The notes under the pieces: generated by a model
What the model was told of the DNA's origin: nothing
Seen by the model: only the letters and a program-made list of their open reading frames with translations
Databases searched by the model: none
Translations under genes and position numbers: made by a program
Assembly (NCBI GenBank): GCA_009693055.1
Contig: SHYA01000001.1
Coordinates: 1 to 64,000, forward strand
Length of the DNA: 64,000 nucleotides
DNA from: Dehalococcoidia bacterium
GTDB taxonomy: Bacteria > Chloroflexota > Dehalococcoidia > Lucifugimonadales > SHYT01
Reading direction: 5' to 3'
Shown here: piece by piece, positions 13,189-34,722 of the stretch
How positions within the stretch are numbered: position 1 is the stretch's first letter
How the letters are laid out: every line of letters starts with the position of its first letter

Positions 13189-13461
13189 GACAAGGACACG
13201 GCTCACGAGACCGTCAACCACAGCGCCGAGGAATGGGTGCGCGGGAACGTGCATACCCAGACCGTAGAGGGCATTTGAAGCCTTCTCAAGCGTTCTATCG
13301 TGGGTGCCTATCACAAGGTCTCCGTGAAGCATCTGGCCGCTTACCTTGACGAGCTGGAATGGCGGTTCAACAACCGCAAGAACCCGTGTCTGTTCAGGGA
13401 TACTCTCATGAAGCTTTTGTTTTCCGGGGTGTTGCCTTATCAGACACTTGTTGCTGAGTAA
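13189..13461 (+). pseudogene. IS1595-like transposase remnant (C-terminal part with internal stop)
   Basis: Frame reads DKDTAHETVNHSAEEWVRGNVHTQTVEGI*SLLKRSIVGAYHKVSVKHLAAYLDELEWRFNNRKNPCLFRDTLMKLL; in-frame TGA where W is expected. Confidence 0.85.
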
Positions 13462-34132: not shown

Positions 34133-34205
34133 AGGCGGGCGAGGCCGCGCAGACGGACGATATTCTAGCAGTCGCCAGCGGATGCCGCAACGGATTTCAA
34201 GAAAG

Positions 34206-34599
34206 GGTGGTGTATCAGTTTGAGAGAATTACCCGATTCCCCGCACAGAAAGAAACACGATGAATACGAGACCTGCCATCACTATGCCAACACACCAGCG
34301 CCTTACTGGTGTGTCCCCTGCGGCAGCCCCGCCCGCGATGAACAACCCAAGACTGAGACCTACGGCAACATCCAGGCCAGCTACCCAGGCCATGAGCCCA
34401 ATATAAACGAGCAAGCCCACAATGAGGGAAATTACCTGGAAGTTTTCCTTGAATTGTCGCACCATTGTGTCCCACCAGGTCTCTATTTCCCAACGGGATT
34501 CTAGCTTCAGAATACGCTTGACAACATCCTTGGTCGGCTTCATCGTCTTGCTCCCCATACTGGTTGCTCATCGGCCTGCTTCCAAACTGATACACCACC
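34206..34599. mobile_element. MITE-like/passenger-gene cassette, 394 bp, 17-bp TIRs, 8-bp TSD
   Basis: ggtggtgtatcagtttg (34206-34222) and its exact reverse complement caaactgatacaccacc (34583-34599); flanked by CAAGAAAG at 34198-34205 and 34600-34607. Confidence 0.88.
34229..34558 (-). CDS. Small hypothetical membrane protein carried by the TIR-bounded cassette
   Basis: MGSKTMKPTKDVVKRILKLESRWEIETWWDTMVRQFKENFQVISLIVGLLVYIGLMAWVAGLDVAVGLSLGLFIAGG...; ORF lies entirely between the TIRs. Confidence 0.65.
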   Translation of the reverse strand: MGSKTMKPTKDVVKRILKLESRWEIETWWDTMVRQFKENFQVISLIVGLLVYIGLMAWVAGLDVAVGLSLGLFIAGGAAAGDTPVRRWCVGIVMAGLVFIVFLSVRGIG

Positions 34600-34722
34600 C
34601 AAGAAAGGCTAGTGGGCCAAGTCTCTCTTACCATCGTTACCCAGACCGGGGACGAGTACAGGGAGCCCGAGGGACGAGTCCCCTCGGGAAAGCATACAAG
34701 GGCGGGGGGTTTGGGCAGTGGC

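Follow-up and report, generated by a model that had tools for sequence, protein, structure and literature searches.

A 394-bp cassette with IS1-like ends and a putative small membrane-protein gene in a Dehalococcoidia genome

The 394-bp element at positions 34206-34599 of the window (the whole 64,000-nt stretch of contig SHYA01000001.1 analysed here) is very probably a non-autonomous mobile insertion cassette (MIC) that would depend for its movement on an IS1-like transposase acting in trans. It presents IS-type terminal inverted repeats (TIRs) with a target site duplication (TSD) and a passenger gene without a transposase, and it has autonomous relatives with the same ends.

Ends, duplication and setting of the element

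The features of the element are as follows.

34198-34205: left copy of the TSD, CAAGAAAG, 8 bp
34206-34222, plus strand: left TIR, GGTGGTGTATCAGTTTG, 17 bp, fitting the GGTRGTGTMTCAGTTTG consensus of 50 TSD-flanked elements
34229-34558, minus strand: passenger ORF, 109 aa from the ATG at 34558 or 104 aa from the ATG at 34543
34551-34556, minus strand: Shine-Dalgarno-like GGGGAG, 7 nt upstream of the ATG at 34543, read from the sequence
34583-34599, minus strand: right TIR, 17 bp, exact inverse of the left TIR
34600-34607: right copy of the TSD, CAAGAAAG, 8 bp

As a preliminary description of this DNA had stated, the two TIRs are perfect inverses of each other, the same 8 bp stand on both sides, and the interior is lower in GC than its surroundings, with 0.525 (~53%) versus 0.64 and 0.66 for 1 kb on either side and 65% in the window. 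When up to 3 mismatches were allowed, these two ends were the only matches to the TIR in the window, where shuffles predict 0.08, and each of them agrees with the GGTRGTGTMTCAGTTTG consensus at 17 of 17 positions. The TIRs, the TSD and the membrane-protein ORF support the same description's view of a recently transposed, non-autonomous element carrying a passenger and no transposase. Inside the 394 bp there is no transposase, nor any significant trace of a transposase remnant (p = 0.55). The ends and the 8-bp TSD are those of the IS1-like family described below and are the only features that connect the element to it; since no transposase sequence is retained, we file it as a cassette with IS1-like ends and not as an IS.

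The element is neighboured by a dienelactone-hydrolase-like gene on the left and by a universal-stress-protein-like gene (names given by inspection). A second copy of the former, with 71% DNA identity, was found at C10:6267-7030. The cassette is inserted right beside a dispersed hairpin repeat with the core GGGAGCCCGAGGGGACNNGTCCCCTCGG, whose copy in the window spans 34608-34715 (gapped). This repeat has 15 other copies in the host genome (e.g., C9:179474, C11:346463 and C3:78815), several of which seem to be positioned shortly upstream of genes; it is absent from the 19 relatives searched and has no Rfam match.

The host genome consists of 11 contigs (1.5 Mb) and is 94% complete. The preliminary description had proposed to look for other copies and for an empty site; neither was obtained, an outcome that, for the interior of the cassette, agrees with one of the two grounds it had named for refuting its reading. 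The interior is single-copy in the host genome and was not found in 97 relatives, and the flanks joined at one CAAGAAAG had no syntenic intergenic match in relatives to which an empty site could be aligned. No IS1-like transposase was detected in the host genome, so there is no resident partner; with its mobiliser no longer detectable there, the cassette is probably stranded. Either the donor of the transposase came and went, or it lies in the missing part of the genome. Another short element, of 148 bp and with ends of this type, is located in the host genome at C9:64786-64933 (L319:1287-1434). Its ends are imperfect and it has no exact target duplication; it suggests past activity of the family in this lineage.

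The end family and its transposase

The species-genome collection contains 64 exact occurrences of the 17-mer end. Chance alone predicts ~31 in 264 Gb searched on two strands (4^17 = 1.7e10), so approximately half of these matches are background, and, because single ends prove nothing, only TSD-flanked pairs were counted. Among the 71 distinct GGTRGTGTMTCAGTTTG-type pairs in the fetched loci, 50 had an exact 8-bp flanking repeat, one had 9 bp and the rest 0-5 bp, which means that 50/51 of the TSD-bearing pairs have exactly 8 bp; a reversed control pattern yielded 0 pairs. The 50 TSD-flanked elements are found in unrelated phyla and in viral contigs, and their sizes range from 145 to 4142 bp. 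A complete transposase is present in 17 of them, a partial one in another 17 and none in 16, the window element belonging to the last group. Several short elements with these ends are plain MITEs of 145-443 bp; the IS1-like MITEs, including 161-bp copies in L019, L023 and L048, share the ends and the 8-bp duplication with the window element but contain no credible gene. No published description of the GGTRGTGTMTCAGTTTG end sequence was found in the literature searched.

Every transposase recognised inside TSD-flanked elements with these ends is IS1-like. The protein is encoded by a single ORF (~277-300 aa) and has the invariant residues D66, D138 and E205. The 22 transposases that were aligned all give a match to NCBIfam transpos_IS1 (best 7.7e-22) and to Pfam DDE_Tnp_IS1, and the IS1 models are the best match for all of them, while the IS1595 model matches 10 of the 22 weakly. 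The sole NCBIfam score listed, that of L067, is 49.5 bits versus a curated cut-off of 100 bits. An AlphaFold2 model of the transposase (pLDDT 83.5, pTM 0.83) has its matches in the PDB among DDE transposases and among integrases of retroviruses. Several of the transposases terminate in ..SN directly at the repeat, hence the stop codon falls inside the TIR. With the below-cut-off score of L067, they look like a divergent IS1-like group. With the IS1 family (RefSeq 'IS1 family transposase') they have in common a DDE transposase with the IS1 signature, ends starting with GGT and 8-bp duplications. They differ from it by the one uninterrupted ORF of ~280-300 aa, by the below-cut-off score of L067 and by the small KGG-type protein and cargo that this mobiliser group often has; the window element differs further in lacking the transposase. 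The ISMhu11 subgroup of the IS1 family in ISfinder is, we presume, a possible home for these transposases; no mention of ISMhu11 was found in the literature searched.

The link between ends and transposase was also seen from the protein side. Plasmid transposases from Acidiphilium, Mesorhizobium and Hoeflea, chosen by protein alone and annotated there as IS1 family, lie in elements of 2634, 3370 and 4224 bp with this type of ends and exact 8-bp TSDs. In the class to which the host belongs, an end within 2 mismatches was present in 7 of the 10 stretches fetched for the ten best IS1-like transposase loci (L264-L273). Complete elements with an 8-bp TSD are found in the same class in L294 (4142 bp), L296, L297, L298 and L314; L317 contains a 145-bp MITE, and L318, from the same order, a 1096-bp element with a decayed transposase and an 8-bp TSD. 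The other refuting ground named in the preliminary description, the lack of any IS with related ends, clearly does not apply: such ISs exist, and they are IS1-like elements with 8-bp TSDs.

That description had named the IS1595 family as a plausible mobiliser. For IS1595 elements, both 8-bp duplications and passenger genes have been reported. The 8-bp TSD of the cassette would fit such an origin, yet it does not discriminate, since duplications of IS1-like elements have this length too. Genomes of the class commonly contain IS1595 transposases (39/148), and the remnant that had been noticed at 13.2 kb of the window is indeed a real IS1595 transposase fragment (13189-13371; 61 residues, with an internal stop, decayed), although unrelated to the ends of the cassette. 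However, in 30 IS1595 loci of the class, ends of this type were absent throughout at up to 2 mismatches, and the ends detected de novo at these loci are different. Nor does any TSD-bearing element with ends of the cassette's type carry a recognised IS1595 transposase. We consider it very unlikely that the cassette belonged to, or was moved by, an IS1595-family element.

According to the mechanism that we propose, the two ends that bracket the single passenger gene would be sufficient for recognition by a transposase. An autonomous relative would supply its single-ORF IS1-like DDE transposase in trans, and this would bind both 17-bp ends, excise or copy the cassette and join it to target DNA whose two strands are cut 8 nt apart; gap repair would then leave CAAGAAAG on both sides. 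The passenger might be transcribed from outside promoters or weakly from within.

It is conceivable, albeit rather unlikely, that the element is instead a decaying relic, left when a larger IS1-like transposon with a membrane gene beside its transposase suffered an internal deletion. Three short derivatives, L013 (743 bp), L053 (507 bp) and L032 (371 bp; flanks matching at only 6/8, tail called by inspection), are built in this way from a TIR, the 3' tail of the transposase, a small gene and a second TIR; L013 and L053, as short cassettes with the same ends, also count in favour of the main reading. In the window element, however, no transposase remnant is detectable, neither the ends nor the duplication contain a mismatch, and it was the 394-bp unit itself that transposed, as its TSD shows. 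A candidate tail remnant at the start of the passenger (GSKTMKPTK versus GSYMPKPTK of L032) was rejected, as the resemblance is no better than that obtained with shuffles.

The passenger ORF

The small membrane-protein ORF of the preliminary description is present on the minus strand at 34229-34558, though with a start more likely to give 104 aa than the 109 aa proposed. The ATG at 34543 is preferred because GGGGAG stands 7 nt upstream. The 104-aa form begins with MKPTKDVVKR, and the 109-aa form starts five codons earlier. Three membrane segments are predicted (residues 42-60, 62-80 and 90-108 in the 109-aa numbering), and the hydrophobic stretches are separated by charged loops. Two other ORFs compete for the same DNA, one of 94 aa on the plus strand, with a TTG start inside the TIR, and one of 127-139 aa on the minus strand. 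Neither has a credible start or composition, although conservation gives no argument against them, since the passenger gene has no known relative. From its sequence, the ORF at 34229-34558 is the element's only credible gene and would encode a small three-helix membrane protein.

This has to be weighed against the element being a plain IS1-like MITE without a gene, whose ORF is open by chance, which we regard as improbable. In L049, L066 and L224, long ORFs without meaning do extend from one end to the other, three ORFs overlap in the window element, and the antisense of another sequence can mimic a membrane ORF, as in L232. An ORF of at least 104 aa was also obtained in 4.3% of dinucleotide shuffles of the element. 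Nevertheless, an ORF of that length with at least two membrane segments was obtained in 0 of 2000 shuffles, and the Shine-Dalgarno-like site and the ATG are well placed and the hydrophobic stretches separated by charge, as described above. Moreover, small membrane ORFs are found not only in the window element but also in the cassettes L013, L032 and L158, which have these ends, whereas shuffles of the 21 elements examined predict ~0.02 such elements. The 85-aa membrane ORF of L232 was left out of this count, being the antisense of the KGG gene of L232.

The homology search that had been suggested for the 109-aa protein brought up no relatives in any collection searched. No homologues were found in 200 genomes of the phylum, in viral contigs, in phages or in plasmids, and comparison with Pfam, NCBIfam, PADLOC and PHROGs gave no family match. 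In the 24 genomes sharing the end sequence, the best E value was 0.011, attributable to membrane-segment noise. A weak match to DoxD (0.0097), under the cut-off, was not accepted as the passenger's family. No sigma-70-like promoter was found for the passenger. By analogy with the other small cargo of the family, the passenger of the cassette might be cargo, possibly a free-standing membrane effector, an assignment that we make with some reserve.

Larger relatives and known systems

A small, conserved protein that is rich in lysine and glycine and bears a GG..KGG..RW signature (KGG protein) is encoded in 19 of the 27 elements of at least 1 kb versus 4 of 87 control stretches. Its gene is found, among other locations, at L294:903-1178 and L349:2075-2284 and in L120, L162 and L192; it is annotated as 'histone H1' in Mesorhizobium and has no Pfam model. 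The KGG protein is possibly an accessory transposition protein. A further slot is variable, and the names given here to its contents are homology labels (PADLOC models for PD-Lambda-2_B, RmrA, HEC-04 and methyltransferases). In L295 it holds both a PD-Lambda-2_B-like gene and a HigB toxin gene; PD-Lambda-2_B-like genes are also present in L120, L199 and, with a weaker match, L172. L222 encodes an RmrA-like protein, L162 a HEC-04-like ATPase, L192 SocA/Panacea and L294 PIN-domain and N6/N4-methylase proteins, while L297 has a DUF433 protein whose neighbour is weakly PIN-like. RES/MbcA-type genes adjoin the element on the Acidiphilium plasmid. As far as such homology can tell, larger members of the family thus appear often to carry toxin-antitoxin-like, methylase or anti-phage-defence-like genes. 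No description of IS1-like transposons with such cargo as a wider family was found in the literature searched.

IS231-MIC231 of Bacillus cereus is one example of a MIC. Another is the qnrS2 cassette of the Aeromonas plasmid pAC3 (PMC5444012), and the term is used in ISsaga (PMC3129680). The window element resembles MICs in its IS-type ends and target duplication around a passenger, in the absence of a transposase and, as we infer, in its mobilisation in trans; it is distinguished by its IS1-like ends, its size of only 394 bp and its orphan small membrane protein. Its larger relatives can be compared with the passenger-carrying 'transporter' ISs (a term found in PMC3129680) and with Tn3-family transposons with toxin-antitoxin cargo (PMC7157771), as they have toxin-antitoxin-like and defence-like cargo beside the transposase. 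They differ from both in that this transposase is IS1-like and that no resolvase was seen in the elements read.

An orphan mini-element is now tied to a definable and widespread mobiliser, and a two-end, one-gene unit of less than 400 bp can, on our reading, be a mobile cassette. The GGTRGTGTMTCAGTTTG ends are specific enough to be used for searching genomes for new cargo, and the cargo-carrying IS1-like transposon family is a more interesting lead than the single cassette. We tentatively speculate that GGTRGTGTMTCAGTTTG could serve IS1-like transposases as an address, shared across phyla, for shuttling small cassettes of genes. This address would span everything from complete transposons with KGG and toxin-antitoxin or defence cargo to transposase-free cassettes as small as 394 bp with membrane-protein genes. 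If this were true, GGTRGTGTMTCAGTTTG-addressed cassettes would parallel those of integrons, with a transposase as the basis of their movement.

As a minor observation on the window, its segment 42837-42953 (minus strand) matches the PyrR-binding site with 54.5 bits versus the Rfam gathering score of 54.
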